Shown in pieces: positions 12,483 through 29,479 of a stretch of 64,000 bases of DNA. A program made the translations under genes and the position numbers. The first letter of the stretch is position 1. Each line of letters starts with the position of its first letter. Source of the stretch: Acidobacteriota bacterium. GTDB taxonomy: Bacteria > Acidobacteriota > Thermoanaerobaculia > Gp7-AA8. Below the pieces are notes generated by a model that saw only the letters and a list, made by a program, of their open reading frames with translations, had not been told where the DNA came from and made no database searches. The DNA lies in the NCBI GenBank assembly GCA_021325515.1, contig JAJPHC010000013.1:188001-252000 (forward strand). Reading direction: 5' to 3'.

Positions 12483-13304
12483 TTACTTCGAAACCTTCGC
12501 CTCTTCGATGATCACCGGATAGCGATACCCCGCCCCGAAGTCCTTGTCGACATGCACGACGCCGCTGATGGTGACGACGTCGCCGACGGCCACGACATCG
12601 CCGGTGGTGATCGCGATGTCGTTGTCGCTCTTATCGGCGGAGCCTGAGCCGTCGCGAAGGTGGATCCAGTTTTTCCCGAGGATGCCGCCGAGGAATTTGA
12701 CGACCTTGCCGCGGACGACGACGGGCTTGTCTTTCAGTGAATCCTTCGCGGCCCAGATCTCGGCCACGGTTTTCGCATCGCTGCCTTCGGCCTTCGCGAC
12801 TTTGATCGGTGTCGTGTCAGGCGTGGCGACGCTCATGTGCTGCTGCGCCGGAGTGGCGGTGTTGCCGCCTTCGAGCGTGCCGAAGAGGATCTTGTCGAAC
12901 GTCCGCTTGAGCGTCTTCGACTCGAACTTCTCCGCGGTCATCTGGACGCTCATCGAGACCTTGTCGCCCTTTTTCACGGCGGTTTCGCGCACCGCGGCCC
13001 AGGTGTCGCCGCTCGAGGTCTTCAGGCGCAGGTACGTGTAGCCGCCCGCGTTGAAGGTTTCTTCCACCGTTCCGGAAACGGTGCCGCCGCCCTGGCTCGG
13101 GGGTGGTGGCGCGACGGCTGGGTGGCCGGGAGGAAGTGTGGCGGTGGTGCTGGTGAGAGGAGGCGCGACCGTGCCCGGCGCAGGCGCAGCGGTCGAAGCA
13201 GCGGCGGCTTGCGCGGCGGGGGCGGCAGGTGCTGCGACCTCGCTCTTTTGCCGGCAGCCGAAGAGCGCGATCAGTGCAATGAGGAGAAGGAAGGCTCGTT
13301 TCAT
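12483..13304 (-). CDS. OB-fold lipoprotein associated with multiheme cytochromes
   Basis: 273 residues from the ATG at 13304 (an ATG six codons upstream is possible). Lipoprotein signal with lipobox LIALFGC, then an Ala/Pro-rich low-complexity linker to about residue 80. Two small beta domains follow. The first (about 80-150) contains GTVEETFNAGGYTYLRLKT, the second (about 185-273) VVVRGKVVKF and GKNWIHLRDGSGS, the usual OB-fold nucleic-acid-binding-like pattern. Similar NrfJ-like OB proteins occur near cytochrome c genes. The function is unknown. It follows the isomerase gene by about 100 bp and is probably the last gene of the cytochrome locus. Confidence 0.7.
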   Translation of the reverse strand: MKRAFLLLIALIALFGCRQKSEVAAPAAPAAQAAAASTAAPAPGTVAPPLTSTTATLPPGHPAVAPPPPSQGGGTVSGTVEETFNAGGYTYLRLKTSSGDTWAAVRETAVKKGDKVSMSVQMTAEKFESKTLKRTFDKILFGTLEGGNTATPAQQHMSVATPDTTPIKVAKAEGSDAKTVAEIWAAKDSLKDKPVVVRGKVVKFLGGILGKNWIHLRDGSGSADKSDNDIAITTGDVVAVGDVVTISGVVHVDKDFGAGYRYPVIIEEAKVSK

Positions 13305-13406
13305 GACGACACAATGTCGCATGATCCGGCCGAAGGCAAAAGAACACGGTCACGCCAGAATGTGTTCGTCGTCACATTTCCTCCCCGATGATCCAAAACG
13401 GAGCCG

Positions 13407-15044
13407 TCACTGCAGTTTGTGCTGGGGCGGAGTCGCTGCAGTGAACTCATTGTCTTTGACGAACCCCGCAATCGCCGCGTCGTCCACTTCGATCTTCGAC
13501 GCCGCGCGCAGCTTCTGAATCCAACGGTCGCGCTCCGTCTGTCTCTTGAGATCGAGGCACTTGGCCTGGACCTTCTCCTTGACTTCATCGAAGGTCATTT
13601 GCCGCGGCGGTTTGATCTCCAGGACTCGAATCAGGTGCCATCCGCTCGAAGAGTGAAGGGGGTTCGATGTCTCGCCGGCTCCCATTTTCAGAACCTCCTT
13701 GAATGCCGGCGGAACCTTGTCTGCGGTAATCCAGCCGAGATCCCCTTCCTGCATCGAGGAAATCGGATCCCGCGAATAGCGTTTGACGGCCGCGGAAAAT
13801 TCGAGCCCTTCCCGCATGGACTTGCGAACCTGAACGGCGTCCTTCTCACTCGACAGAAGGATTTGCGCGACGTGCCGCTGTTCTGGCGCAACGAACTCCG
13901 ACTTGTGCTCGTTGTAATAGCGGGAAGTCTCTTCGGCGCTCGCCGCCAGGCCCTTGAAGACATGATCGCGGAACAGAACGGCTTCCATGAGGTACTCGCG
14001 ATACTTCCGTACTTCCTCGGCAATGGATGCTTCCGCCGCCGTATTGCGCGCTGCTGCTTCGAGCATCAGCAACGGTGAGTTGATTGTGGAGCGGATTCGC
14101 GAGTCGATCTCGTATTGCGCCCGCTGCGGCGGCAATGCAGCCCACTTGCGCAGGTCGGCGTCATTGAACGTCTCACCGGCTGTAATTCGTCCATTCTGAT
14201 CCCAGCTCGCCAGTACTTTGTCTCTGGGTGTGTTCAGCAAGCCGGCCGGCGTGCAATCACAGTCCGCGCGTACGACGTGATACCGCCGCCACAAATCGTC
14301 GGAAAACTCGCTCTTGCGGGCTTCGATACGGCGTGCCTGCAGGACCCCGGCGATCTGATCCTTGACCTTCTCGAACGGCGGCAGCTCGACTTCGGCCTTG
14401 TTCTCGACGAAGACCAGATCGAATCCGTCCCGCGTTGGAATGATGTCCGAAAGCTCTCCCGCCTCCAGCCTGAAGACGGCATCCTCCCACGCCGGCTCCA
14501 TCTGTCCCCAGTTGACGATGTCGCGTCCTCCATGAACACGGGAGTCGGCAATGGAGCAGCTTCGGGCGAGCGACTCGAGGTCCTCGCCGTGCAGGATCGC
14601 AGCTCTCGCCTCTTGCGCTTCGGTCCGCGTATTGAAACGGATCTCCCGGAGCACGATGACCGTCGCCAGCTTCTTCCAGGCCTCACGGATTTCGTCGGGA
14701 CCGGGAACCGCTTTCGAGTCGATCTCCGACTTGATGAGAAAGCTCTCCACGCGGGTTCGCTCGAGATCGGTCGTCAGCTTGACTACAGTGGGGTCGCGAT
14801 CGAGTCCGATTTCATAGGCTTCCTGGACCATCAGCTTGTCGTCGATGACGATCTTCAGGAACTCGCGCGCCTCCGCGTTTCCGCCGAGGAACTTGGCGTG
14901 TCCACTGTGGCGATCGGAAAAGAGATCGACGATGTCCTGTGCTGTAACAGGGTCACCGTTCACCTTTGCCAGTGTTCTGTTGTCCGCGGTCGCGAACAGC
15001 GGAAACAGAAGGAGCATGAGCGCCGGAATGATTCTTCTTGTCAT
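13407..15044 (-). CDS. periplasmic peptidyl-prolyl isomerase with two parvulin domains (SurA/PpiC-like)
   Basis: 545 residues from the ATG at 15044, chosen because it gives a signal peptide (IIPALMLLLFPLFATA) and overlaps the upstream gene by 92 bp. Longer in-frame starts have no signal. After a SurA-type N-terminal domain (LAKVNGDPVTAQDIVDLF) come two PpiC rotamase domains. The first is near 145-245 (VLREIRFNTRTEAQEARA to GWDLVFVE-like FDLVFVENK). The second is near 395-495 (HVAQILLSSEKDAVQVR, GDLGWITADKVPPAF, GWHLIRVLE). Parvulins of this kind recur beside extracellular multiheme cytochromes. Here the gene closes a cytochrome/barrel operon, so it likely folds those exported proteins. Confidence 0.88.
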   Translation of the reverse strand: MTRRIIPALMLLLFPLFATADNRTLAKVNGDPVTAQDIVDLFSDRHSGHAKFLGGNAEAREFLKIVIDDKLMVQEAYEIGLDRDPTVVKLTTDLERTRVESFLIKSEIDSKAVPGPDEIREAWKKLATVIVLREIRFNTRTEAQEARAAILHGEDLESLARSCSIADSRVHGGRDIVNWGQMEPAWEDAVFRLEAGELSDIIPTRDGFDLVFVENKAEVELPPFEKVKDQIAGVLQARRIEARKSEFSDDLWRRYHVVRADCDCTPAGLLNTPRDKVLASWDQNGRITAGETFNDADLRKWAALPPQRAQYEIDSRIRSTINSPLLMLEAAARNTAAEASIAEEVRKYREYLMEAVLFRDHVFKGLAASAEETSRYYNEHKSEFVAPEQRHVAQILLSSEKDAVQVRKSMREGLEFSAAVKRYSRDPISSMQEGDLGWITADKVPPAFKEVLKMGAGETSNPLHSSSGWHLIRVLEIKPPRQMTFDEVKEKVQAKCLDLKRQTERDRWIQKLRAASKIEVDDAAIAGFVKDNEFTAATPPQHKLQ

Positions 15045-16101
15045 GATTGATCCTTGCCGTGGCGATGATTTCCGTCGCCACACGGTCGGTGAGAGAGACG
15101 CTATTGGAGATTGCGCCGAGCATGAGAAAGCCGGTGTAGTCCGTTCCTTTGCGGTCGTCCTGGACGGCCCAGAGGATCCTTCCGGCACGGACATCGACGA
15201 GGGTGACTTCGAGATCCAGCGCGGGAGTCGGCGTCCCGTTGCGTGCAACAGGGTCATCGAAGCGATAGATCGTGCCGCGAAGGAAGAGGGGAGTTCCAAT
15301 CGCTTTTGCGAGTGTAAGAAGATCCTGCGATCCCACCTTGTGAAAAGAGATGCGTGCCTTCAATGCAGCATCGCGAACCATCGTGGGATTGATCACTGTG
15401 AATCCGGCAGCCTCCAGACGCAAGGCCAGAACATCCGCAACCAGCCGGACAGCTTCCGGCACGGATGATTCATTGTCGAATGGGAGAATGCAGATGGGGC
15501 GCGTGTGGTCGAGGTCGGGGTCGCTGTAGGAGAGAGCGCGCCGACGGAAGCTCTCGCGGGGGATGGCCTGCGCACGATGTTCGACGCAGGAACCGCAGGG
15601 GAAACCATTCAGCAGCATGGCAACGGCCTGTGGTGCGAGTTCCGCCAGGGAATTCTTCTCCCCAAAGCCGAGCGCCCGTTCCGTGTCTTTGCTGGTCAGG
15701 CCCGCGATGTTCGACCATTGTGTGCTGCCTGCGGCGTCGACGAGCCGTGCGGTGAGCCCAATGGAGGCGTTGCGCGTCTGTGCGTACGTGTAGACGGTGA
15801 TCGTCAGAATCGCGGATGCTCCCGCGCTTGTGAGAACCGATTGACGAACGTCGTCGCCGAGAAAATCGAAATAGCGGATGCGCCGCTGCTCCAGCAGTGA
15901 TTCGATGTCGTTGCCGGTTGCCACGTTCCAGCCCTTTGCAGCGACCGCTTTCGCCAGAAGCGGCGGGAGAATTTCCTGAGCGCTCTGTTCGCCGCTGACA
16001 TTGTCGAGCGGCATCAGCACGAGCGTAGCGGCGCCCGCGGATGCGGCCGGACCCGCGAACAGCAGCAAAGCCAGAGCGGCCGATGTGAGTCGGATATTCA
16101 C
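14953..16101 (-). CDS. periplasmic protein with two CsgG/GNA1162-like domains
   Basis: 382 residues. Cleavable signal (ALALLLFAGPAASAGA). Two similar alpha/beta halves: TLVLMPLDNVSGEQSAQEIL near 27 and PICILPFDNESSVPEAVRLV near 205. Each is followed by a helix-rich segment and a strand of the form AILTITVYTY or PLFLRGTIYRF. This is the anticodon-binding-like fold shared by CsgG, TolB N-domain and GNA1162 proteins, present twice. The first half has a CGSC pair near residue 175. It overlaps the preceding lipoprotein gene by 4 bp and the isomerase gene by 92 bp. Probably an outer-membrane assembly or secretion accessory of the cytochrome/barrel system; this is inference from fold and position. 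Confidence 0.65.
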   Translation of the reverse strand: MNIRLTSAALALLLFAGPAASAGAATLVLMPLDNVSGEQSAQEILPPLLAKAVAAKGWNVATGNDIESLLEQRRIRYFDFLGDDVRQSVLTSAGASAILTITVYTYAQTRNASIGLTARLVDAAGSTQWSNIAGLTSKDTERALGFGEKNSLAELAPQAVAMLLNGFPCGSCVEHRAQAIPRESFRRRALSYSDPDLDHTRPICILPFDNESSVPEAVRLVADVLALRLEAAGFTVINPTMVRDAALKARISFHKVGSQDLLTLAKAIGTPLFLRGTIYRFDDPVARNGTPTPALDLEVTLVDVRAGRILWAVQDDRKGTDYTGFLMLGAISNSVSLTDRVATEIIATARINHDKKNHSGAHAPSVSAVRDRGQQNTGKGER

Positions 16102-16667
16102 TTCAGCAGCGTCCCCAGTTCGCGCCGAACGAGCCGTCGCGTAGCCTCGGTCAACGATTCGCCGCCGACGCCAAACAGACGCGCGGAGAGGCCGGTGCCG
16201 CTGCGCGTCTGCCCCACCGACCAGATCGTGGTTCCGCTGTGCGTCTCGACCAGGCGCACTTGAATCGTGATCTCCGGAGCCGACGTGGATCCACTGTGAC
16301 TTTCGCCGTAGTCGACAACGCTGCCGGCGAAGATGCCGTCGACGCCCAGCTCTTTTCCGATCTTCTGATAATCGGCGGGGCTCAGGGCGTCTGTGCTGAT
16401 GCCGGAGGAGCGTACGAGTTTCGTGACCTGTCCCGGCTCGCTCACTTGAAAGACATCCATGGCGAGGAGTTCGAGATAGAAGATCTTCTGTACCTTGTCG
16501 CCCGAGGTCCGGTCTTGTGCAAGGCTGTCGAATGGGAGAACCGCGACCGTCTTGATCGCACCGAGATCGGCATTGGCGTGAACGAACCTTGTCTGATGAT
16601 TCGAAATGCCGCAGGCGGTCAGCAGCAGGATCGCGAATGGTAGAAGCTGGCGGCGCGATGGAATCAT
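16098..16667 (-). CDS. CsgG/GNA1162-like lipoprotein
   Basis: 189 residues from the ATG at 16667, preferred because GAGGGA lies about 6 nt upstream. An ATG at 16679 overlaps the barrel gene's stop and would add four residues. Lipobox FAILLLTAC. The mature protein has KTVAVLPFDSLAQDRTSGDK, then ELGVDGIFAGSVVDYGES and ITIQVRLVETHSGTTIWSVG. This is the single-domain version of the fold seen twice in the next gene. It sits directly after the beta-barrel gene and is likely a periplasm-facing outer-membrane lipoprotein that helps assemble or stabilise it. Confidence 0.7.
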   Translation of the reverse strand: MIPSRRQLLPFAILLLTACGISNHQTRFVHANADLGAIKTVAVLPFDSLAQDRTSGDKVQKIFYLELLAMDVFQVSEPGQVTKLVRSSGISTDALSPADYQKIGKELGVDGIFAGSVVDYGESHSGSTSAPEITIQVRLVETHSGTTIWSVGQTRSGTGLSARLFGVGGESLTEATRRLVRRELGTLLK

Positions 16668-16675
16668 GGAGTCCC

Positions 16676-18805
16676 TCATTTCATGAACGTGAGCGTGGCA
16701 AAGAATGAGCGCTGTCGCAGCGAGCCCGACTCGAGACTTGTCGTAACGGACGTGTAATTGAGGTCGGCCGTCACCCAGCGATTCATCGACCAGCGCGGGT
16801 TGAGGATTACGCGCCGCGCACGGCGGTTCACCGTCGGATCGATATCCTGGTCATAAGACGCTGCAAGTGAAACGGTTCCCTCGCCGAACGGAAACCAGTC
16901 GGCGTGATAGCGCTGGGTGAATCCCGACGTCGTCAATCCGGCTGCCCAACCCAGTTTCACGGAAAGCTGGAGCGGCCGGCCGGGACGCCAGAGGAAATCA
17001 GAGAAGACACGCTCGTCGCGTTCTGCTCCGAGGAACTGCACTGCGGGATCGCTGGATGAGGACTGGATCCGCTGAAGCGTTCCATTGAGCAGCATCCGCA
17101 ACGATGGCGTGAGCCGGATGTTGCCCGAAAAGTCGATGTAGTGCCGCACCGCCGAGTTTGTGCCGGCGATGACCTGGTTCTGCACACCGGCATTCGCCGT
17201 CAGCGACACCGACTGGATGACGAGCGCCGTGACGTGCAGCGCCTTTGTGTCGACGCTGAAACGGCTCTCCTGAATCGTCTCATCCTGTCTTCCCAGCTCC
17301 AGTGTGATGCGAAGCTCGCGTGTTGGCGCATAGTCCGCGAACGCCGTCGTGTCATTGAGGGCGTCGGCTCTTCCGCTATAGGTGTCAGCCGTTCTGCGCA
17401 GAATCTGGCTGCGCAGGGAAAAATGGTGGGGCAGGTCATATTGCACGCTGAACAGATGCTGCAGGTCGGCGCTACGGGTGTCGGGACGGCCGGCAAACCG
17501 TTCGCGCAGCGACGAAAAGATGGTGGTGTAGGCGGCGACCGCCTTCTTCGACGGCTGATAGGTAATGGTCGCGGAGCCGTTGACGTTGTTCTGCGACCCG
17601 TTATGAGACCCGCCGGCAGCGATCGTCGTGTGATAGAAGGCTTGAACTTCCGTAATGAGCGCCGGTTCGGCGTTCACTCCAAAATTCACGACCTTGAACC
17701 AGCGCGCCGTCGTGAGCGTGAACGTAATGGAGTAGAGCGATAGTGCGCTATTGAACGCGGTGCTGGCGGAAGATAGCTGCTGCCACAATTGTCCGTCCTC
17801 GCTCGTATAGACGTCCCATGTGATCGGCCCTCCGCCATGCTGTAATGGGTTCCCCGACGGTTCGCGCACGATCACCCTGATTTCATCCACGCGGTCCGCA
17901 TGTCCGAGATCGATGAAGAGGTTTTGAAACGAGGAGCTGTCGGGGCCGAGCGAAATCCCGGCACTCGCATTCACATTGGCATCGGTCAAAGCGGCATTGG
18001 CGGTGGGCGGGTGATCGCGGGAGTCGAGCGGTGTTTCGTCGATGGAATTCAGCGCACGATTGATGGCGACCGGCGTTGGCACGGATGCCGGTGCATTACC
18101 GGTTGCCGTTTCTCTCAAGCTGACGAGTTGAGTGCTCGCATCGGCGGAAACCGCCAGCTTTCCGCCGAAATGCGTCGAGCTCCAGGTGAGGCTGCCGGCG
18201 TGCGCAGTCGTGGTTCTCTCGTATCCTGCCTTTGCGTCGGTCGAATCGAAGTAGCGTTCTTCGGCCGTCGCCTGCAGGCCGCGCCAGTGATATTGAAGCG
18301 ACGAGAGGAAGGAATCGTCGGTGAGATCCGTACCCGACGTGTCGTCGCGCGTCGCATTGCGGCTGGCGAGAATGTGTGTGACCGGCAGATCGTCGGGCTG
18401 CCAGGTGAGCTGGCCGATGCTTCTCTGGATCGTGCGTGTGAAGCCATCGTCCTGCTCCCTCGTATGGAGCGTGAGCCACTCATTGCGAACCATGATCTGC
18501 AGATTGCCCGGGTTCCACAGCAGCTCGGCGAGTGGCTGAAACTGGGTCGAGCGGTGATCGCGCTCGGTCGAAACGAGATTCTGTGAGCCGCGAAAATTAT
18601 CGACCCGGCAGAAGAGGCGCACCAGAGAAGTCGTCGTCAGGGTCTCGTTCAGACGCAGGTCATATTGCTGCCGGATTCCACTGGTCGCCGACGTGGTGCT
18701 CTCTCGATTTTCATAAGACACAGTGGCTCGCCCGAAAAGATCGCCGCCAAAGGCCGCGAAGCAGCTCCAGAGAAGCATCGACAAGACGGCTGCGCGGACT
18801 CTCAT
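16676..18805 (-). CDS. outer-membrane beta-barrel with discoidin-like insert, candidate electron-conduit porin
   Basis: 709 residues with a signal peptide (AAVLSMLLWSCFAAFGG). Most of the protein is short alternating amphipathic strands (for example RVILNPRWSMNRWVTADLNY) and it ends with SFFATLTFMK, a hydrophobic last strand typical of outer-membrane barrels. An internal region (about residues 285-395) reads like an F5/8 type C (discoidin) domain: NLFIDLGHADRVDEIRVIV, WDVYTSEDGQLWQ, RWFKVVNFG. The gene overlaps the ten-heme cytochrome gene by 4 bp. In porin-cytochrome conduits (MtrAB/OmbB-OmaB type) a barrel gene accompanies a periplasmic multiheme cytochrome. This barrel has no recognisable MtrB CXXC motif, so the conduit role is contextual. 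Confidence 0.78.
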   Translation of the reverse strand: MRVRAAVLSMLLWSCFAAFGGDLFGRATVSYENRESTTSATSGIRQQYDLRLNETLTTTSLVRLFCRVDNFRGSQNLVSTERDHRSTQFQPLAELLWNPGNLQIMVRNEWLTLHTREQDDGFTRTIQRSIGQLTWQPDDLPVTHILASRNATRDDTSGTDLTDDSFLSSLQYHWRGLQATAEERYFDSTDAKAGYERTTTAHAGSLTWSSTHFGGKLAVSADASTQLVSLRETATGNAPASVPTPVAINRALNSIDETPLDSRDHPPTANAALTDANVNASAGISLGPDSSSFQNLFIDLGHADRVDEIRVIVREPSGNPLQHGGGPITWDVYTSEDGQLWQQLSSASTAFNSALSLYSITFTLTTARWFKVVNFGVNAEPALITEVQAFYHTTIAAGGSHNGSQNNVNGSATITYQPSKKAVAAYTTIFSSLRERFAGRPDTRSADLQHLFSVQYDLPHHFSLRSQILRRTADTYSGRADALNDTTAFADYAPTRELRITLELGRQDETIQESRFSVDTKALHVTALVIQSVSLTANAGVQNQVIAGTNSAVRHYIDFSGNIRLTPSLRMLLNGTLQRIQSSSSDPAVQFLGAERDERVFSDFLWRPGRPLQLSVKLGWAAGLTTSGFTQRYHADWFPFGEGTVSLAASYDQDIDPTVNRRARRVILNPRWSMNRWVTADLNYTSVTTSLESGSLRQRSFFATLTFMK

Positions 18806-20085
18806 CGCGGATATCCCACGCTGTATGTCTGAAGGCCGTGGCAGGTCGATGTACAGGAGCCCCCTACCGCGGTCTGGATGAAAGTCGTGATTCCGGGGAA
18901 GCCTCCGCTGAGGATCAATGCGCCATTACGCGTGCTTCCGTGTGACTCGTGGCAGACCGTGCATCCGATGCGGCTGGCGGCATGGCTTGTGTGTGAAAGG
19001 AAGCGGCTGCCGCTGCTGCCGTCCACATAAACGTTCCGCGCGTGACATTCGAAACAGATTTCCTCCTCGGACTTGCGCAGCAGATACCGATACGAGGAGC
19101 CGTGCGGGCCGCGAACCGAGTCGTCGCCGCCGTGACAATCACTGCAGGTGATGATGCTTCGGACATCGAAACCTTCGGCGAAGGAGCGGGGATCGATACG
19201 GGCATTCCGTCCCTCGCCCTGAATCGGGTGATAAGAGGGATTCGCGGGATTCGTCAGCCTGGCGATATCCGGCTGGCCCGCCGGTTGTTTCGTCCACGAT
19301 GAATGGCACTTGAAACAGATCTCGTATTCATGCTCGTCTCCGGGATCTGCCGCAGCGACGAACCGGTAGGTTGGAACTACACCGGCGCCTCCGTTCACGA
19401 CCTGCACACGTGACACGCCGGCGAGACGGTTGGTGCGGTCGGATGACGAAGGCGCCGGATCCCGGATGACCTGATGGGCGTTGTGACAGTCGGAACAGGT
19501 GACATGCCTGTGATTGACCGGGAATGCCGCATAGCGCGAAGGATCGCCGTCTTCGTCGCTGCGATGCGTTCCGCGTGCAGGTGCCCCGTGCACGAATGCT
19601 CTTGTCAGTTGGCTGCGGATGTCCGGCCCCCGCGAGCCGTCATGACAGTCGTTGCAGAGAGCGGACTCACGTCTCTTGAGCAAGGACGGAATCACTCCTG
19701 CCGCGTCTCTTACGCCGTGAGGATCGTGGCAGGTCGTGCAGCGGCTGGCCTGCTGCAGCGCGTGAGCGGACTGCGCCCACGTCGCGTTCCCTGGAAATGC
19801 TCCCGTCTGTGACGTACCAGCGTGGCAGACGAAGCACAGAGTGTCGTCATTCGGCCCGAAGAGACCGCGGTCCAGCCGCAGTTGGCTCGTCGTGCGACGG
19901 TCCGTCTCCTGATCGTGACATTGCAGGCAGGAACCGGGCTGGATATCCATGCGGCGTTGCGGACCATGAATCGGATCTCCATGTCCCGTGCTCTTGTAGA
20001 CCCCGTCTTTTGCAGAGGCGGAGAGGGCATAGAGGAGGCAGAGCGTTGCGGCGACGAGCGTGCCAGGCCTCATTGGTTGTGACAC
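18802..20085 (-). CDS. ten-heme c-type cytochrome
   Basis: 427 residues; signal peptide TLVAATLCLLYALSASA. Nine CXXCH motifs (CLQCH, CFVCH, CTTCH, CNDCH, CSDCH, CFKCH, CSDCH, CFECH, CTVCH) plus a final CTSTCH, a CX3CH variant that can also bind haem. Several have the doubled-CXXCH signature CxxCHxxHG that supplies distal His ligands. A central 100 residues between hemes 5 and 6 is haem-free. It starts 16 bp inside the end of the hexaheme gene and ends on the barrel start (4 bp overlap). It is the best candidate for the periplasmic or barrel-embedded cytochrome of the conduit. Confidence 0.9.
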   Translation of the reverse strand: MSQPMRPGTLVAATLCLLYALSASAKDGVYKSTGHGDPIHGPQRRMDIQPGSCLQCHDQETDRRTTSQLRLDRGLFGPNDDTLCFVCHAGTSQTGAFPGNATWAQSAHALQQASRCTTCHDPHGVRDAAGVIPSLLKRRESALCNDCHDGSRGPDIRSQLTRAFVHGAPARGTHRSDEDGDPSRYAAFPVNHRHVTCSDCHNAHQVIRDPAPSSSDRTNRLAGVSRVQVVNGGAGVVPTYRFVAAADPGDEHEYEICFKCHSSWTKQPAGQPDIARLTNPANPSYHPIQGEGRNARIDPRSFAEGFDVRSIITCSDCHGGDDSVRGPHGSSYRYLLRKSEEEICFECHARNVYVDGSSGSRFLSHTSHAASRIGCTVCHESHGSTRNGALILSGGFPGITTFIQTAVGGSCTSTCHGLQTYSVGYPR

Positions 20086-20909
20086 TCCTGGCAGGTGGAA
20101 TCGATGGAAACGCCGTCCGCGTAGATCGTGGATTTCCTGTTGTCGGAACCGTGCGCCTTATGACAGGAGAGACAGTTCACCTCGTCGTCGGTACTGGGGA
20201 TGGTGTCGTCGGCCGGTGTGGAGACCGGTACACGCGGCAGCGAAACGTTAGACCAGACACTGTAATCCGCGATCGCCGATCCGAAGATCTTCTGATCGAC
20301 CGAGTGATGGGTCGGGTCGCCGTGGCATTGGCCGCACCACTTCGAGACGCCCGTCTTGTAGCGGATGTTCGATGGCGCGTAGACCTGGTTTGGATTCGTG
20401 CCGTCGGCATGCACCGTCTGGTTCGCAATGATGGAGACGGGAATCAGGCCGGTGCGCGTCGGATCCGGACGGAGGTTTCTGTAGTTCTCGTTGCCATGTG
20501 GATCGTGGCAGGTGGTGCAGCTCAGGATCATCGCTGTGGAACCGCCGGGCGGCAGTTCCGGTGCCGGCGCACCGAGATGATGAGCATGATCCGTCGTCGT
20601 GCCGCCGCTGGCGGGGAAGGTGCCGCCGGCGGTGGTTTGCGTCACGGGTGAGAGCACGTCCGGCGCGTTCGGGTTCGAGCCGTCATGACAGGAGAGACAG
20701 AGCTCGATCGTGGTTCCGCGCAGGAGCAGCATCGGAGCCGGCGTGGGATCGTTGTCGGTACGCATCGGCTGCCCGCCGCTGGAGTTGTGTTGCGTATGGC
20801 AGTCGGAGCACACCATGCTCGAGCCGTAGTGCCAGTCGCCGGCGGACGCCGCACGCGCGTGAAGGAGCGTGAGCGTAATGAAGAAAATCGCTACAGATGA
20901 CCGGGGCAT
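20070..20909 (-). CDS. OmcS-like hexaheme c-type cytochrome (short form)
   Basis: 279 residues; signal peptide IFFITLTLLHARAASA. Six CXXCH: CSDCH, CLSCH, CTTCH, CGQCH, CLSCH, CQECH. The order and local context match Geobacter OmcS as I recall it: first CxxCHTxH followed by a PMLL segment and CLSCH, then CTTCHDPHG, a W-C-x-x-C-H motif (SKWCGQCH), VNCLSCHKAHGS and a C-terminal CxxCH only a few residues from the end. The His of CSDCHTQH corresponds to the residue that in OmcS ligates a haem of the neighbouring subunit. It is shorter than OmcS (432 residues), with the loops trimmed. First gene of the unit with the ten-heme cytochrome and barrel. Confidence 0.88.
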   Translation of the reverse strand: MPRSSVAIFFITLTLLHARAASAGDWHYGSSMVCSDCHTQHNSSGGQPMRTDNDPTPAPMLLLRGTTIELCLSCHDGSNPNAPDVLSPVTQTTAGGTFPASGGTTTDHAHHLGAPAPELPPGGSTAMILSCTTCHDPHGNENYRNLRPDPTRTGLIPVSIIANQTVHADGTNPNQVYAPSNIRYKTGVSKWCGQCHGDPTHHSVDQKIFGSAIADYSVWSNVSLPRVPVSTPADDTIPSTDDEVNCLSCHKAHGSDNRKSTIYADGVSIDSTCQECHNQ

Positions 20910-21069: not shown

Positions 21070-22203
21070 TCACCAGTGACCAGCAGCGAGGTCACCGCCC
21101 ATCGGGTGGCAGGACTTGCAAAGGGTCTTGTAGGTTCCGCCGCCTTCCTCCGTCGTATCGGCCGCGGTCGGGCTCGGGAAGATGAGTGCGAACGGATTGT
21201 TGTTGCCGTGAGCCTTGTGGCAGGTGAGGCAGCCCGGCGAGTCGGTCGCCGCGGTTGCAGTTGCGCCAGCCTGATAAACCTTGAGGTTCGAGGCTACCGT
21301 GAAGCCGCTGTTCACTGTAAAGGAGCCGATCTTGACGAGACCCGTTGGATGGCGGACGAATGCCGAGCTGGCTCCGTTGCCGTTGCTGACACGGTCGGCC
21401 GCCGTCTTGTCGCCGCCATGGAACTCGCCATGGCACACGCCGCAGAACTGGTCCATTCTGTTGCTGCTCTTGGAACCGTTGAAATTCACCTCACTACCAT
21501 CGGCCAGGCGGCTATAAACGACGGAGCCGCGGCCATAGTAGTTCTGCATGTTGCCAGAGCCGAATGTATAGGTGTTACCTCCGAGGATCGTGACATCCTT
21601 CGTTCCGTCAAAGGCGGCGGCTTTCGCCATGCTCGGGCTGACGTTGCCGACCTGTGCCGACGTGATCGCGAGACGCATCGCATAGGGAACCAGGTTGCGG
21701 AAATTCGCGCTGCCGTGCGGTGAGTGGCAGCTCACGCACTCGAGCTCGCCCGTCGAGAAGTAGTTGCCAATGTTCGTACCGTCGTATCCCGGAGGACGAA
21801 CTGTCGAACCGATCCTGTGGCCGCCGCCCGTCGCATCCTCGCGGACACCGCCCGCGGAGCGAACGTACGCGTTGACGTTGTCGCCATAGACGTCAGGAGC
21901 GAAATTCTGGTCCTTGTGGCAGGTCTCGCAAACGTCATCGTTCTTCAGCAGGTAGGAACGCCCGGGGCCCGGATTCGGAGCCGGATAGTATGGGTTGATC
22001 GTCCGGTTCGGCGATGTGATCGTCGTGTTCGGCGTAGTGATCGCCGACCCGTCGGTCAGGTTGTTGTGCGCACTGGCGTGCATCGAGTGGCAATCGGAAC
22101 AGTTCATGTTCTCTTGGTAATGATAGTTGCTCGCTGTCTGTGCCAGCAGCGGCAGAGCCGCGATGGCCAGCAGAGCCGTCAGGATGACTGTCAGTTTTCT
22201 CAT
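21070..22203 (-). CDS. OmcS-like hexaheme c-type cytochrome, candidate filament subunit
   Basis: 377 residues; signal peptide LTALLAIAALPLLAQ, and a strong Shine-Dalgarno AAGGAGAG (22213-22220). Six CXXCH: CSDCH, CETCH, CVSCH, CGVCH, CLTCH, CKSCH. Context again follows OmcS: CSDCHSMH at the N-terminus, CVSCHSPHGSANFRNL, then DQFCGVCHGEFH followed by FVRHPTG (OmcS has a similar RHPAG), GCLTCHKAHGNNNP, and the last CxxCH close to the C-terminus. The Asn/Gly/Thr-rich inter-haem loops suit an extracellular protein. It stands alone between a 395-bp regulatory gap and a terminator, suggesting strong independent expression, as expected for a filament subunit. Confidence 0.9.
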   Translation of the reverse strand: MRKLTVILTALLAIAALPLLAQTASNYHYQENMNCSDCHSMHASAHNNLTDGSAITTPNTTITSPNRTINPYYPAPNPGPGRSYLLKNDDVCETCHKDQNFAPDVYGDNVNAYVRSAGGVREDATGGGHRIGSTVRPPGYDGTNIGNYFSTGELECVSCHSPHGSANFRNLVPYAMRLAITSAQVGNVSPSMAKAAAFDGTKDVTILGGNTYTFGSGNMQNYYGRGSVVYSRLADGSEVNFNGSKSSNRMDQFCGVCHGEFHGGDKTAADRVSNGNGASSAFVRHPTGLVKIGSFTVNSGFTVASNLKVYQAGATATAATDSPGCLTCHKAHGNNNPFALIFPSPTAADTTEEGGGTYKTLCKSCHPMGGDLAAGHW

Positions 22204-22598: not shown

Positions 22599-23498
22599 TC
22601 AGCGCTGAGGCGCGAAGACCTGCACGCGTGAGTTGCCGCGCTCGACGACATAGATGTTGTCTTTGTCGTCCACGCAGAGGTCGGAAGGAAACGACAGCTC
22701 GCCGTCGAAGTACCCCAAGCCTCCGAGCTGGCCGAGAAGAACGCCATCGCGGGTGAAGATCTTGACCTGGTGGCGCAATTCATCGCTCACGAGAATATGG
22801 CCGCTGGAGTCGAGCGCGATGCCGGAGGGGAGCGAGAAGTTCGCTGCTCCCATTTCATGCCGTCCCCATCCTCGGAGATAGTTGCCCTGGGAATCGAACA
22901 ACTGGACGGCCAGCGCCTGTTGATCGGCGACATAGATCGTCCCGTCGGGTCCCACGGCGATGGCACAGATCGAGCGGAATTGCCCCTCATCCGTGCCGCG
23001 GCTTCCGAATTGTGTTCGCTTGCGGCCGTCGGGATCGAAGACGAAGATCTGCGCCGACTGGTTGTCGGCGACATACAGCCGTCCATCCGAATCGTAAGTC
23101 ACGGCGCCGATGATCGGCTGGCCGTCGATGCCCTTAAGGTCCAGATCGCCGTTGTACACGCCGCGATAGTTGAAGAGCCGCACATGACGCCGGTCGCCCT
23201 CGACGACTGCGATGTTGTCACGTGGTGCAACTGCGATCCGCACGGGATCGTGAAGATAGCGGGCCGACGAGAACGAATAGAGCTCGCCGCCGTCAGTGCG
23301 AAAGACGGACATGGTCGCGTTGCCTGTGTCAGCGACCCACAGCTCCTGATGCTTCGCATCGAACGCGATCGCGTGCGGCCTGGAAAACGTCCCGAGATAG
23401 AGATGTTGATTGAAGATGGCGACGCTCTTGTAGCCGAAGGGCTCTTCTGCCGCCATTCCGGCGGCGATTAGCAGCAGCACGGCGATACTACTGCGCAT
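22599..23498 (-). CDS. exported NHL-repeat beta-propeller
   Basis: 299 residues from the ATG at 23498, which gives a signal peptide (SSIAVLLLIAAGMAAE) and overlaps the 42-heme gene's stop by 11 bp. About six NHL repeats, each with a pattern like FSRPHAIAFDAKHQELWVAD, GQFRSICAIAVGPDGTIYVA or FSLPSGIALDSSGHILVSDE, ending in NIYVVERGNSRVQVF. Such propellers are protein-interaction scaffolds. NHL genes are repeatedly found next to OmcS-type and other multiheme cytochromes. It is coupled to the 42-heme cytochrome and upstream of the hexaheme gene, so it is probably an extracytoplasmic assembly or docking partner. Confidence 0.85.
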   Translation of the reverse strand: MRSSIAVLLLIAAGMAAEEPFGYKSVAIFNQHLYLGTFSRPHAIAFDAKHQELWVADTGNATMSVFRTDGGELYSFSSARYLHDPVRIAVAPRDNIAVVEGDRRHVRLFNYRGVYNGDLDLKGIDGQPIIGAVTYDSDGRLYVADNQSAQIFVFDPDGRKRTQFGSRGTDEGQFRSICAIAVGPDGTIYVADQQALAVQLFDSQGNYLRGWGRHEMGAANFSLPSGIALDSSGHILVSDELRHQVKIFTRDGVLLGQLGGLGYFDGELSFPSDLCVDDKDNIYVVERGNSRVQVFAPQR

Positions 23499-26400
23499 GT
23501 TGTACGCCCATCGACTCGCTGGAGGCATGGCACTCGACGCATAGTGCGCGTTGCGGGTCGGCACGAAGGATCATCCGATTTTGCGAGCCGTGCGGCGAGT
23601 GGCATGCCAGGCAGTTCATCGCCTGCTTGGTCCGCGGGTCGATGACGTTCGATCCGACCGGGTGTCCGAACTGCGCATGACCGCTGTGGCACTTGGAGCA
23701 GACGGCGGTGATGTCTCCCTTGAGAAGGTGCGGGTTGTTCGATTGGTGCGGCTCATGGCAGCTCGTACAGCGTCCGCCGTTTGCCTTCAAGGGATGGATC
23801 GAGACCGAGCGGTCCATCTGGGCTTTGATGGCCTTATGACAGCCCAGGCAGATCGCGCGTTCATCGTTGCCCTTGATCAAACCCTTTTCGTCCGCTGTAT
23901 GCGGTGTGTGGCACGTCGTGCAGCCTGCCTCCAACGCCTTGTGCGCTCCCGGCTTCTGTGCAGCGGCGCGGATCGGTGAGTGGCAGCGGTAACAGAGCTC
24001 CGTTGCGGTCTTTGTCTGCAGTGCGGATGGTTTGGGGCCGGCAACATCATGGCAACGGGCGCATCCGCTGAAAACCTCGTGGGGCTTCGAGCGGATGAGA
24101 TGCGCCTGATTCGAGCCGTGCGGATTGTGGCAGGAAACACACTGCAGCGCCGATGCCGGGAAGTGCTTATGGGCTGTAGCCAGCCTCGCCTCGGCTGGAT
24201 CGTGACAGGTACGGCACAGCGTGTTCGCGTCATCGACGAGAAGCCGGCCGTTGCTGGAGGCATGAGGTGCATGGCAGGTATCGCAGTCGCCTCCCGCAAA
24301 TGGCGGATGCACAGAGGTGGCGTTCTTGAGCTTCGACAGTGACTCGTGACAGGTAAAGCAGAGCGCCTCGCCCTTCTTCTTCAATCCTTTCGCATTGTCC
24401 GACACGTGTGGGCTGTGACAACTGATGCATTCGCCCTTTTTCACAGGCGAGTGCACAACGGGTTGCACGAGCTGTTTCGTAATGCTCGCGTGACAGTCCG
24501 TGCAGAGTGAAGGTCCAAGGCGCGCGATCAGGTGCTTGGCGCGGCCGGCGTGCGGCGTGTGGCAGGAAAGACAGGCACCCTTTCGTGCCGGCTCATGGAT
24601 CCACGCTCCCTTGCGGTACTTGTCGGCGAAATCGCCGTGACAGGTTTCGCAGAGCTCGGGCGCCTGCGCATTGAGCGTTGCCGGCGAGCCTGGTTTGACG
24701 GCTGCTACATGACACGCACCGCAATCGCCATCGACGAATGGATTGTGACCGTAGGGATTGAAGAGGCCCTTCTTCTGCGAAAAATGCGGATCGTGGCAGG
24801 TCGTGCAGTCGGCCTTGGCGAGCGAGTAGTTGTTGTGCGCCTTCTGCATCGCTTCGGTATCCGTCTGGTGACAGCCGCCGCAGAGCTGTGACACCGGCTT
24901 GTTGAGCAGGGAGCCGTTCTCGGATGCGTGGCCATTGTGGCAGGCCGTGCATTTGCCTTCTGCTACCGGCGCATGGATATGTGCTCCGCCGCGGCGCATC
25001 TTTTCGTTCATCGCCGGGTGGCAGCCGAGACAGATCAGGCGCAGATTGCCCTTCAGGTTTGCCGGCTCCGCGGAGCCATGCACGTCGTGACAGCTCTCGC
25101 AGGAGCCCGCGAGCACAGGTGGGTGAACGGACTTCGCTTTCTGCAGGCTCGTCGCGACGTCCTCGTGGCAGGTGTTGCAGAGCTTCGCCGTATCGTCTTT
25201 CAGCAGCGCGGGACGGTCGGTTGAGTGCGGCGCATGGCACGTCTGGCATTCGCCCGACGCGGCCGGCGCATGTACGTGATCGCCGCGTGATGCGATGAGG
25301 GCTTTGTGGCAGCCCATGCAGAGTTTGTCGCTGGAAGTGACGAGCAGCTTCTCATTGGACGAAGCATGCGGCGTATGGCAGGCCGCACATTGACCATCGC
25401 GGACGGGGACGTGAACGACGCGCCGGGTAAATTCGGCTTTCTTATCGTCGTGACAGGTGAAGCATGTCTCGGCAACAGGCTTCTTCAACAGGCGCGGATT
25501 GGCCGTGCCATGCGGCGCGTGGCAGGAATCACAACCGGTCGCTAACGCGGGGTGGATGGTCTTTTCAGCGTTCCATCCCTTCACGGCGTCCGCATGGCAC
25601 TGCTTGCAGAGAGCCTCACCCTCTGCTTTGAGCAGTTTGGCGGCCGGTGCAGCGTGTGGTGAGTGACAGGCCGTACACTGACCCTCGCTGGCCGGTTTGT
25701 GACGGGAGGCGCCTTTCAGTTGCTGCTCGATCGAATCGTGGCATGTGATGCAAAGCGACTTCTGATCGCTATTCAGGAGCGCTTTCTGATCCGAGGTGTG
25801 GGGTGTGTGACAGGTGGTGCAACTGCCGGACTTGAACGCCTCGTGGACGTTCTTGTCCTTCTTCATGTCGTCCTGTTTGTCAGTGTGACAGGTAAAGCAG
25901 AGGTCCGGCTCTTGTGTGGCCAGAACGGGGGTCTTCGATTCGGATGCAGGTTTGTGACAGCTCGTGCAATCCGACACGGGAGGATGCGTCACGCTCTTGA
26001 GCAATCCTTTTTCCGGCGCGGAATGCGGCGAATGGCATGAGGTGCAGTCTTTAGTCAGGGTATATCCGCTGTGCTTCGGTTCCGGCCCACGACCTCCCGG
26101 CCGGTGGCATGACACGCAAAGGTCGGCCAGAGGCTTCGTCAGGCGCCGTTCATTGGGGCTTGCGTGTGCGTCGTGGCAATTGAGGCAATTCTCTCCGGCC
26201 GGCTTGTGAATGCTCGCCTGTGCGAACTTCTTCTGTGTGTGGCACGTGAAGCAAAGCTGATTGCCGTCGGCGCGCAACAGTGCGCGATTGTCGGAGGCGT
26301 GCGGCAGATGACACTTCGTGCACTTGCCTTCGGCGACCGGCACGTGTACGTGCGCCGCTTTGAACGACTCCTCCTGCTTCTTATGGCAGTCGAAGCAGAG

Positions 26401-26655
26401 ACCCGGCTCCTCTTTGACGAGCACCAGCGTGCCGACGATTCCATGCCGCTTGTGGCAGCTCTCGCATCCCTTCGCATCCTTGAACGGCGCGTGTACATCT
26501 TTCTTCGACTGCTGCTGCAGAACCGGCTGGTGACAGTCCACGCAGTCTTTCGACGCGAGCTTGCGCGTCGGAGCTCCCAGGCAGAAGAGGGCTGGCAGCA
26601 GGCAGCAGGCGAGATAGAAGACGAAACGTGAGAGCGCTGTCTGCTGCCTGATCAT
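23488..26655 (-). CDS. 42-heme c-type cytochrome
   Basis: 1055 residues from the ATG at 26655, selected because it yields a signal peptide (FVFYLACCLLPALFCLG). The frame is open upstream but there is no signal and it runs antisense into the kinase gene. I count 42 CXXCH motifs from CVDCH to CVECH, about one per 25 residues. They alternate in a two-haem unit of roughly 45-50 residues: CTxCHxPHxSxxxxLL, then LCxxCH, then a basic stretch and HxPV before the next. This is the doubled-CXXCH family. No other domain or membrane anchor is seen. A rigid haem wire of this length could span the periplasm or reach outside. Coupled to the NHL gene downstream. Confidence 0.92.
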   Translation of the reverse strand: MIRQQTALSRFVFYLACCLLPALFCLGAPTRKLASKDCVDCHQPVLQQQSKKDVHAPFKDAKGCESCHKRHGIVGTLVLVKEEPGLCFDCHKKQEESFKAAHVHVPVAEGKCTKCHLPHASDNRALLRADGNQLCFTCHTQKKFAQASIHKPAGENCLNCHDAHASPNERRLTKPLADLCVSCHRPGGRGPEPKHSGYTLTKDCTSCHSPHSAPEKGLLKSVTHPPVSDCTSCHKPASESKTPVLATQEPDLCFTCHTDKQDDMKKDKNVHEAFKSGSCTTCHTPHTSDQKALLNSDQKSLCITCHDSIEQQLKGASRHKPASEGQCTACHSPHAAPAAKLLKAEGEALCKQCHADAVKGWNAEKTIHPALATGCDSCHAPHGTANPRLLKKPVAETCFTCHDDKKAEFTRRVVHVPVRDGQCAACHTPHASSNEKLLVTSSDKLCMGCHKALIASRGDHVHAPAASGECQTCHAPHSTDRPALLKDDTAKLCNTCHEDVATSLQKAKSVHPPVLAGSCESCHDVHGSAEPANLKGNLRLICLGCHPAMNEKMRRGGAHIHAPVAEGKCTACHNGHASENGSLLNKPVSQLCGGCHQTDTEAMQKAHNNYSLAKADCTTCHDPHFSQKKGLFNPYGHNPFVDGDCGACHVAAVKPGSPATLNAQAPELCETCHGDFADKYRKGAWIHEPARKGACLSCHTPHAGRAKHLIARLGPSLCTDCHASITKQLVQPVVHSPVKKGECISCHSPHVSDNAKGLKKKGEALCFTCHESLSKLKNATSVHPPFAGGDCDTCHAPHASSNGRLLVDDANTLCRTCHDPAEARLATAHKHFPASALQCVSCHNPHGSNQAHLIRSKPHEVFSGCARCHDVAGPKPSALQTKTATELCYRCHSPIRAAAQKPGAHKALEAGCTTCHTPHTADEKGLIKGNDERAICLGCHKAIKAQMDRSVSIHPLKANGGRCTSCHEPHQSNNPHLLKGDITAVCSKCHSGHAQFGHPVGSNVIDPRTKQAMNCLACHSPHGSQNRMILRADPQRALCVECHASSESMGVQHAQ

Positions 26656-26784: not shown

Positions 26785-28128
26785 GTGAAGAGGTTTGCCG
26801 AGCTCGCACGCGACTGGCGCTTCCGGACACTCGTCCCGGTGATCACCGTCAACCTCCTGGCCTTCGGCGGGCTGTATTTCCTGATGTACCACTTTGCCGT
26901 CAACAATCTGATGCAGGCCAATACCGGTGCCGGTGAGCTGATCTTCGACGACCTCTCTCTCTATTACGAAGACTCCACGACGGAGCATCGCGTCATGTCG
27001 ATGGTGCCGCGGATGCAGCACATCGCCACGGCCCACGGGCTTGCGAGCCTCACCCTCTTCGCCATGAATGGAGACCGCATCATCGAAGTCTCCGGCGTCC
27101 CCTTTCGCGGTGACGAGAGCAAGCGCCTCGTGCTGGAGCGTTCCCTCGGGAACGCACGCTCCTGCCAGCACTGCCACGACCCGAGCCTTGCGCGGCTGGC
27201 GGTGATGCAGCTCAGCCTCGACCTGACGGAGCCGATGGCCGAAGCGACGGCGCGCGTGCAAAAGCGGTTCGCGCTGGCCGGGGTTGCCTGGATTCTCGTC
27301 CTGCTGCTGCTCATGTGGACGGTGCGCGTCGTCATCGGCCGCCCGATCGCGCGCATCGGAAAGAGCATCCGCCCCGACATTCCTCACGATCTCGATGGGC
27401 TGGCGCGTGCGCACAAGCAGCGCGAGGAGAACATCGCGCGGCAGATGGTGCGCGCCGAGCAGCTCGCGTCGCTGGGGGAAGTCGCCGCCGGGTTGACGCA
27501 CGAGATCAAGAATCCGCTGGCCGGCGTCATCGCCGCGCTGGAGCTGTTGAGAAGCGAGGACGGCGACGAGGGGACGATCGTGCTCGTCGATCAGATGCTC
27601 GCCGAGTTGCGCCGTGCGACGAGCACGCTGGACTCGCTCCTGCGCCTCGCGCGTCCCCGCCCTCCGCAGCGATCCGAGGTGGATCTGGCGCGCGTGGTGC
27701 GCGAGGTGACGTCGCTGTTCGCGGCGCGCCTTCGCCGGCAGGGAATCGCACTCGAAGTCGATGCCGATGACGGCGCAGCTCCTCTGCTGCTCGACTCCGG
27801 GCTCATGGTTCAGCTATTGGTCAACCTGTTGACCAATAGCATGCAGGCGACGGAGCGCGGCGGAACCGTCGCCGTGCTCTATCGCAACCGGCAGTTGATC
27901 GTGCGCGACACGGGCCGCGGCATTTCGCAGGCCGATCTCGATCGAATATTCGTCCCCTTCTTCACGACGAAGGAGGAAGGCACCGGGCTCGGCCTCGCCA
28001 TCTGCCGGCAGATCGTCGAGCAGCACGACGGCCGCATCGAGGTGCAGTCCGAAGTTGGGAAAGGCACGTCGGTCATCGTGACCTTCGCCGGAGAGGAGAG
28101 CGCAAATGGCGCACTTGCTGTTGGTTGA
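26785..28128 (+). CDS. sensor histidine kinase with periplasmic c-type haem motif
   Basis: 447 residues from GTG at 26785. Membrane spans at about 17-37 and 163-184 enclose a 125-residue periplasmic domain. Just before the second span lies SCQHCHDPS (CXXCH at 127-131), so the sensor probably carries covalent haem c, as in Tll0287-like/DUF3365-type sensors. A short HAMP-like segment follows, then HisKA with LTHEIKNPLAG (His239) and HATPase with LLTNSMQA, VRDTGRGIS and GTGLGLAIC. This is the NtrB-type kinase class. It overlaps the NtrC-type regulator by 23 bp and diverges from the 42-heme gene, so it likely senses redox state or a haem ligand and controls the cytochrome genes. Confidence 0.9.
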   Translation: MKRFAELARDWRFRTLVPVITVNLLAFGGLYFLMYHFAVNNLMQANTGAGELIFDDLSLYYEDSTTEHRVMSMVPRMQHIATAHGLASLTLFAMNGDRIIEVSGVPFRGDESKRLVLERSLGNARSCQHCHDPSLARLAVMQLSLDLTEPMAEATARVQKRFALAGVAWILVLLLLMWTVRVVIGRPIARIGKSIRPDIPHDLDGLARAHKQREENIARQMVRAEQLASLGEVAAGLTHEIKNPLAGVIAALELLRSEDGDEGTIVLVDQMLAELRRATSTLDSLLRLARPRPPQRSEVDLARVVREVTSLFAARLRRQGIALEVDADDGAAPLLLDSGLMVQLLVNLLTNSMQATERGGTVAVLYRNRQLIVRDTGRGISQADLDRIFVPFFTTKEEGTGLGLAICRQIVEQHDGRIEVQSEVGKGTSVIVTFAGEESANGALAVG

Positions 28129-29479
28129 AGACGAGGCGCTGTTGCGCTGGGCGTTGCGCGCACGGCTGGTGCGGGCCGGCCATCAGGTCGACGAGGCGTC
28201 CCGCCTGTCCGAAGCGGAGGAGCTGCTGAAGCGAAGGAAGCCCGATCTCGTGCTGCTCGATGTGAACCTTCCCGACGGCAACGGCATCGAGTTTCTCGCG
28301 GCGCAGCACGAAAGACTGTCGGAGAGCGTCGTCATCGTCTTCACCGCGGACGGCCGCGTGGAAGATGCCGTGCGGGCCATGAAGCTCGGCGCGTGGGATT
28401 TTCTCTCCAAGCCCGTGGATCAGGACGAACTGCTGCGCCTCCTCGATCGCGCCTCGGCCTTCCAGCGGCAGGGGCTCGATGCCGAGACGTCGCGCCGCGC
28501 GCGCGAGCGCAACACGCGCGTGAAGATGATCGCCGAATCTCCGGCGATGAAGGACGTCCTCCGGATGGGCGCGACGGTGGCCAACGCCGGCGCGACGACC
28601 GTGCTGCTGCGCGGCGAGACGGGCGTGGGGAAGGAAGTCGTCGCCCGCTACATCCATTCCGCATCCCAACGGGCTAACGCGCCGTTGCAGGCGCTCAACT
28701 GTGCCGCGCTTCCGGAGCATCTCGTGGAGAGCGAGCTGTTCGGCTACGAGAAGGGAGCGTTCACCGACGCGAAGTCATCGCGGAAAGGATTGTTCGAGCT
28801 GGCCGACAGCGGCACGGTGATCCTGGACGAGATCGGCGAAGTGCCCCCCGCGCTGCAGGCCAAGCTGCTGCGCGTTCTCGAAGAGAGAACCCTGCGCCGC
28901 CTCGGCGGCTCGCGCGAGATCGCGGTGGACGTCCGCGTGATCGCCTGTACCAACCGGCCGCTGGAGATGGAGGTCGCGAACGGGCGCTTCCGCGAAGATC
29001 TCTTCTATCGATTGAATGTCTTTCCGATCACCGTGCCGCCGCTGCGCGAACGGGTGGAGGACATCATCCCGCTCGCCGTCGATTTCCTGCAGCAGTTCGG
29101 CGCCGCGGCGGGGAAGCGGTTCACCGATATCAGTCCCGAGCTGCAGCGAAGACTCCTCGAGCATCAGTGGACGGGAAACGTGCGCGAGCTGCGCAACCTG
29201 ATGGAGCGCGCGGCGATCCTCGAGAACGGCCCGGTGCTGACGGGCCGCTCGCTGCCGCTCGATGCGACGGCGATTCCGCCGGTCGCTGCGGCGCAGGCGG
29301 AAGAGGAGATCGTGCCGCTGGACGAAATCGAATTCGTGATGGTGCAGCGCGCGCTGCGGGCAGCCCGCGGAAACCAGTCGCAGGCTGCGAGACTGCTGCA
29401 GGTGAGCCGCGACCAGTTGCGGTATCGGGTGAAGCGGTACCGGGAACTGGGGCGGGAACTGGCGGTGGCGGACGAGTAG
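28106..29479 (+). CDS. sigma-54-dependent NtrC-family response regulator
   Basis: 457 residues. Receiver domain 1-120 ([12 protein letters not shown], Asp in [13 protein letters not shown], Lys in FLSKPVD). AAA+ domain about 140-370: Walker A GETGVGKE, sigma-54 contact loop GAFTDA, Walker [11 protein letters not shown], arginine finger region [15 protein letters not shown]-terminal Fis-type helix-turn-helix [20 protein letters not shown]. The contact loop reads GAFTDA rather than canonical GAFTGA, a natural variant. The partner is the haem-motif kinase directly upstream. Target promoters are expected to have -24/-12 elements; the most obvious candidates are the cytochrome units. Confidence 0.93.

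Follow-up and report, generated by a model that had tools for sequence, protein, structure and literature searches.

The window analysed here is a 64,000-nucleotide stretch of Acidobacteriota DNA (contig JAJPHC010000013.1, assembly GCA_021325515.1). It carries on its minus strand a gene for a cytochrome of 1055 residues with exactly 42 CXXCH motifs, each taken as one haem. The cluster continues, in order, with genes for an NHL/beta-propeller protein, two six-haem cytochromes, a nine-haem cytochrome, a candidate outer-membrane barrel, a CsgG-like protein, a GNA1162-like protein and a prolyl isomerase (Table 1). Comparison with relatives argues strongly that the 42-haem protein is a fused homologue of two separate cytochromes, OscI (26 haems) and OscJ (16 haems), within a diverged cluster of the osc type. 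The first-pass annotation of this DNA had described the large cytochrome but overlooked this apparent fusion.

Table 1. The 42-haem gene, its parts and its neighbours, in window coordinates
Feature	Position	Strand	Remarks
42-haem cytochrome, fused OscI-OscJ homologue (apparent), 1055 residues	23488..26655	-	42 CXXCH; in register with 26-haem + 16-haem pairs
Predicted signal peptide, about residues 1-28	26572..26655	-	hydrophobic N-terminus in sequence
OscI-like part, haems 1-26, residues 1 to about 660	24676..26655	-	matches split 26-haem proteins over residues about 28-652
Fusion joint, haems 26/27, residues 650-668	24652..24708	-	elsewhere: stop, new start, second signal peptide
OscJ-like part, haems 27-42, about residue 661 to end	23488..24675	-	matches split 16-haem proteins, residues about 666-1045
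NHL/beta-propeller protein	22599..23498	-	Pfam NHL 113 bits; adjoins cytochrome genes of homologues; start 23498 inferred, mechanical open reading frame starts at 23564
Six-haem cytochrome, distant OmcS-family relative	21070..22203	-	19.6 bits to OmcS-type hidden Markov model (HMM)
Six-haem cytochrome, OmcS homologue	20070..20909	-	6EF8 OmcS E=1e-13; 56.5 bits to OmcS-type HMM
Nine-haem cytochrome, same gene run	18802..20085	-	9 CXXCH; OmcS-type HMM unmatched
Putative outer-membrane barrel with discoidin-like insert, OscE-like	16676..18805	-	conserved in 17 homologous loci and Desulfuromonadales-order loci
CsgG-like protein, OscF-like	16098..16679	-	Pfam CsgG 23 bits; conserved
GNA1162-like protein, OscG-like	14953..16101	-	Pfam GNA1162-like 24 bits, slightly under cut-off; conserved
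PpiC-type prolyl isomerase, OscH-like	13407..15299	-	Pfam Rotamase_2 106 bits; conserved; true start probably near 15050
Divergent histidine kinase	26785..28128	+	Pfam HisKA, HATPase_c; one CXXCH (CQHCH) before second hydrophobic segment
Sigma-54-type response regulator, partner of the kinase	28106..29479	+	71% identical neighbour in genome G002

The 42-haem frame is free of stops, and the mechanical open reading frame of 1337 residues differs from it in an upstream extension only. Shuffling its residues yields a mean of 0.64 CXXCH and a maximum of 5. The motifs are spaced 22-29 residues apart, at about 24.5 residues per haem, and two types of unit alternate: a 23-residue CxxCHxxH...L unit with a histidine at +7, and a CxxCH...H.P unit of about 25 residues with its histidine at about +15 to +18. 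Pfam recognises Paired_CXXCH_1 in 22 stretches and, within that search, no other domain. The count, the density of about one haem per 25 residues, the regular two-type alternation and the lack of further domains are thus as first annotated. The accompanying description of a di-haem repeat is right about the alternating units, but the chain is not a plain repeat. Alternation is broken at haem pairs 8/9, 25/26 and 34/35, where the first unit carries histidines at both +7 and +20 and its partner has none. A profile self-comparison finds the triplets 7-9, 24-26 and 33-35 mutually most alike, most clearly at haems 8, 25 and 34, so that the chain resolves into blocks of 9, 17, 9 and 7 haems. Growth by duplication, proposed in the same annotation, is not tenable as a recent event, since the most similar di-haem units share only 65% of their DNA (best 0.65, median 0.54) and the count is fixed at 42 in two phyla. 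A doubling of 21 haems is also rejected: an existing 21-haem family is built as 7+7+7, in contrast to 9+17+9+7, and the self-comparison does not favour an offset of 21.

Full-length relatives with 42 haems each, 55% and 54% identical, are present in two genomes of other genera, one belonging to the same family and one to a different family within the class. When the search was widened to class and phylum, 12 rows proved to be single chains, of which one has 43 haems, while in 16 other Acidobacteriota genomes the same protein is encoded by two adjacent genes for exported products with 26 and 16 haems; these counts cover the loci retrieved, a subset of the genomes searched. When the 12 fused and 16 split rows are aligned, the split halves being concatenated for analysis only, all 42 haems stay in register down to 33.7% identity. 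Forty distal histidines are invariant across these 28 rows and a forty-first is kept in 71%, the last haem having no conserved second ligand. A second phylum was sampled through the order of a genome titled Desulfuromonadaceae (below, the Desulfuromonadaceae order). Here the cytochromes are split in every complete locus examined, with counts of 26 and 16 (in one row the smaller partner has 15 CXXCH and one CX3-4CH), and 16 pairs, 34-38% identical to the window protein, match its register at all 42 haems. Combining the two phyla, the register is kept in 44/44 aligned rows. Frames of '1092 aa' in this order, taken up as candidate fusions, have an internal stop and are really pairs of 26-haem and 16-haem genes.

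A global alignment of two 42-unit repeats might itself force such a register, and the alignment was therefore tested by shifting. In eight deep pairs and at offsets of up to 20, the unshifted alignment scores 16-24 and no other shift exceeds 15. Orthology of single units is weak at this depth, only 9/42 units finding their own position in one distant row, which is why shifting was used instead.

The cut in split pairs always falls between haems 26 and 27, and each half has its own signal peptide. The 26-haem proteins of split pairs stop about 9-16 residues past the start of haem motif 26. In fused chains haems 26 and 27 lie 23-28 residues apart, close to ordinary steps and to the joint that follows haem 35 (18-23 residues). 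This ordinary spacing is most simply read as an end-to-end contact of the two proteins where they are separate. Homology, haem register, synteny and a single module joint of ordinary spacing together tie the fused chain to the split pairs. With the chosen rooting, which is not itself demonstrated, the split state is ancestral. Parsimony places two changes on the tree and a single fused clade is not rejected (approximately unbiased test, p-AU 0.31); long branches meet in this tree, and either one fusion or two may have occurred.

The gene neighbourhood points the same way. Profiles built on the Acidobacteriota clusters recover, in 12/12 Desulfuromonadaceae-order loci examined, the arrangement barrel candidate, CsgG-like, GNA1162-like, prolyl isomerase, 26-haem, 16-haem, NHL, with multihaem genes, mostly six-haem, close by; in Acidobacteriota loci these same genes surround either the 42-haem gene or the 26-haem and 16-haem pair. 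The first-pass annotation had coupled the cytochrome to an NHL protein, and the two are indeed adjacent in nearly every homologous locus, but the NHL gene is only part of a larger OmcS-nanowire cluster that is conserved. The six-haem protein of one Desulfuromonadaceae-order locus is OmcS (6EF8, E=2e-118), and Acidobacteriota relatives from split clusters reach 401 bits with the OmcS-type HMM, which leaves 42-haem, 10-haem, 9-haem, 7-haem and 4-haem control cytochromes unmatched. The six-haem proteins of the window are more distant, that at 21070..22203 giving no match to solved OmcS in a single-sequence search, so that their presence does not imply filament formation. Strand alternation in the barrel candidate has a z of 2.6, a few of its relatives give sub-threshold matches to barrel families, and one gives a weak match (5.6e-4) to PF11854, the MtrB-type porin family, for which neither the cluster nor the genome of the window has a match.

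The split proteins are not new. GSU2495 and GSU2494 of Geobacter sulfurreducens are oscI and oscJ of the osc (omcS-companion) operon, according to PMC13194489, citing Shen et al. 2025; the same source assigns folding of OmcS nanowires to OscH, their secretion to OscE, OscF and OscG, and their morphology to OscD. GSU2495 carries 26 haems (PMC12977616, PMC2996986). The window protein has 26 and then 16 motifs in this order, its 42/42 haems are in register with 32 split pairs and its joint follows haem 26. The surrounding prolyl isomerase, channel-like proteins, beta-propeller and OmcS-family hexahaem neighbours also resemble the osc cluster, and by gene order and published roles the window genes would correspond to OscE, F, G and H as lettered in Table 1. 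Unlike OscI and OscJ, the window has one chain in place of two exported polypeptides, and so departs from the canonical pair as a fused variant; unlike the osc operon, its hexahaems are much diverged from OmcS, the gene order is different and there is an additional nine-haem cytochrome.

An operon described from the sulfate-reducing partners of methanotrophs (SEEP-SRB1), and from Geobacter, Anaeromyxobacter and others, has four core genes, for a six-bladed propeller, a 16-haem cytochrome, a 26-haem cytochrome and a prolyl isomerase (Skennerton 2017, PMC5539420). All four are present in the window. That operon is deltaproteobacterial and unfused and has no recognised porin, whereas the window has the fusion, a conserved barrel candidate and two CsgG/GNA1162-like genes. 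Its describers could assign it no function and did not find a known porin (PMC5539420), a gap to which the barrel candidate and its two companions are a possible answer. It had been foreseen in the first-pass annotation that homologues of the same haem count might already be characterised. The 26+16 pair is in the literature, but the literature found, which excludes the primary osc study (Shen 2025), assigns no function to either cytochrome; nor did the search turn up a report of a 42-haem protein.

The best match of the 42-haem protein among solved structures is 6R2Q chain A (333 aa), which we take to be MtrA of the MtrCAB complex; the length fits, although the molecule label of the record differs. 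The decahaem MtrA/DmsE family model TIGR03508 scores 467 bits against a cut-off of 192.2, in seven stretches and with a score inflated by the repeats. The likeness to MtrA/DmsE (6R2Q, PMC7198977) thus includes paired CxxCHxxH units and about 25 residues per haem as well as a score above the family cut-off; the differences are 42 haems in place of ten and a host genome lacking a match to the MtrB porin family. This MtrA-like sequence, with the haem density, favours a long haem wire as the likely form, as first annotated.

We consider it probable that the natural fusion of OscI (26) and OscJ (16) makes a linear bis-His haem wire, probably periplasmic, that serves OmcS-type filaments. Once the protein is exported and loaded with haem, the 42 haems would stack in a single line as in MtrA. 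Where the two proteins are split, OscJ would dock onto the end of OscI, making haems 26 and 27 neighbours. Less certainly, the rod may lie in the periplasm and link electron donors there or in the inner membrane to the filament of OmcS-type hexahaems, while the prolyl isomerase, the OscE/F/G-like channel proteins and the beta-propeller may fold, export and shape that filament. The fusion implies, by a Rosetta-stone argument, that OscI and OscJ act as one unit in a defined order, and it offers a single-chain target for structural work.

Several points weigh against this scheme. The localisation of the 42-haem protein is a prediction from its sequence. AlphaFold2 models have a predicted local distance difference test score (pLDDT) of 33 for the 42-haem protein, in which only a helix at residues 7-26 exceeds 60, and of 30 for the barrel candidate, and thus lend no structural support to the linearity and length of the rod or to the barrel fold. 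A fused lineage, f39 (L122-L124, L128, L135-L137), carries the 42-haem gene amid four-haem, seven-haem, prolyl isomerase and, mostly, NHL genes; the OscE/F/G-like profiles gave no match in this cluster, and the 42-haem protein is therefore not tied to OmcS-type filaments everywhere. Lastly, the 26-haem and 16-haem genes were unexpressed under the conditions of the metal-respiration studies, as these are summarised in PMC5539420.

OmcS-type filaments conduct electrons beyond the cell, and how electrons cross the periplasm to these filaments is debated. MtrA holds ten bis-His haems across 80 Angstrom (PMC7198977), and at its pitch of 8.9 Angstrom the 41 steps between 42 haems come to 364 Angstrom, giving an estimated rod of about 36 nm. 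The periplasm is reported to be >40 nm wide in G. sulfurreducens and <30 nm in most microbes (PMC10954620). Such a rod could span a large part of the periplasm, or the whole of it, and supply OmcS-type filaments with electrons; since PpcA-E are reported to charge OmcS directly (PMC10954620), it would be a parallel or alternative route. An unvarying total of 42 predicts one conductor of fixed length. A stronger proposal is that the protein is a molecular ruler, directly bridging the inner membrane and the filament base, with a haem number fixed by the width of the envelope and with OscI and OscJ as the same rod in two pieces. This we put forward tentatively, as somewhat unlikely in so strict a form. 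In published giant cytochromes the haem number differs even among near relatives (PMC7399161, PMC10734462), which makes the constancy of 42 stand out. The PCC3 giant cytochromes (PMC5566968, PMC10734462) are likewise very haem-rich, with few residues per haem, and have been proposed as periplasm-spanning wires; their counts vary from 10 to 85 where the present count is fixed, and their gene set, of extracellular and periplasmic giant cytochromes with a porin and a conserved inner-membrane protein, differs from that seen here (no search was made for the inner-membrane protein).

A different use of the same haem chain would be as an outer-membrane conduit, with the chain or one end of it threaded in the neighbouring barrel like MtrA in MtrB and reaching into the outer membrane or across it, independently of any OmcS-type filament. 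The MtrA/DmsE similarity and the constant presence of the barrel candidate in the cluster are in its favour. So is the f39 cluster, which resembles the gene set of the Uet conduit (PMC10734462). Uet groups NHL repeat units, a prolyl isomerase and a porin with a multihaem cytochrome, much as the window does with its barrel candidate in the porin's place, but the Uet cytochrome has 11 haems in place of 42 and its partners are tetrahaem and trihaem proteins where the window has OmcS-type hexahaems. The absence of an MtrB family match from cluster and genome, a chain about four times the length required for crossing a membrane, and the OmcS secretion role reported for OscE/F/G in PMC13194489 make a conduit unlikely.

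Encoded as it is alongside genes for the folding, secretion and morphology of OmcS nanowires, the protein might instead stand outside the electron path and help to build filaments as a template rich in haem or by donating haem. That essentially every haem has an invariant second ligand suggests haems bound tightly for electron transfer and not for donation, and we regard an assembly role as very unlikely. Slightly less credit still is due to a charge store, in which the haems are mainly an electron reservoir and not a directed wire. The very high density of 24.5 residues per haem would suit it, and a capacitor has been proposed for giant cytochromes (PMC7399161), but a reservoir needs neither an exact number nor a fixed order of modules, and 42 haems are kept in register at 34% identity, even in split chains. 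Finally, although repetitive genes are prone to mis-assembly, a 42-haem frame falsely joined by assembly, frameshift or annotation, the hazard raised at first annotation, is hardly credible given the full-length 42-haem relatives of 54-55% identity in other genera and the total of 42 kept in 44 rows.

Some relatives depart from the common pattern. The fused protein with 43 haems (L098 / L135) has its extra CXXCH between haems 26 and 27, at the joint. At another f39 locus (L136) an exported protein of roughly 590 aa might be another barrel. Some Acidobacteriota 26-haem and 16-haem pairs (L051, L078; G066) are much more like those of the Desulfuromonadaceae order than like other Acidobacteriota pairs, with a same-position score of about 42 vs about 20, which suggests transfer of these pairs between phyla. 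In a one-contig genome (G446; L125, L126) the 26-haem-type and 16-haem genes lie about 200 kb apart, and the 26-haem-type frame has only 21 haems, possibly through a frameshift.

On the other side of the 42-haem gene, the divergent kinase and regulator may provide control of the cluster. In 7/9 related kinases beside 42-haem, 26-haem/16-haem and 21-haem loci a CXXCH lies at a similar place, which suggests that the divergent kinase is a c-haem sensor kinase controlling these clusters. No sigma-54 promoter site was found between the divergent genes, and counts of such sites over the whole window are at chance level. The regulator gene is adjoined by one for a 3824-aa protein (29629-41103) that contains several DUF11 repeats and, at its C-terminus, a peptidase C25 domain. 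A small exported protein that has no Pfam match (12483-13322) is also found near the 42-haem cluster of G033 and the 21-haem cluster of G009.

The 21-haem proteins are a separate family of about 600 aa, with exactly 21 haems in 11 loci (L012, L013, L014, L058, L060-L066). Where their surroundings were read, they have a neighbourhood of their own, with NHL, four-haem and seven-haem genes and often a prolyl isomerase and a kinase/regulator pair. Related 13-haem proteins at L059, L138 and L139 likewise have a single fixed count in all three loci.

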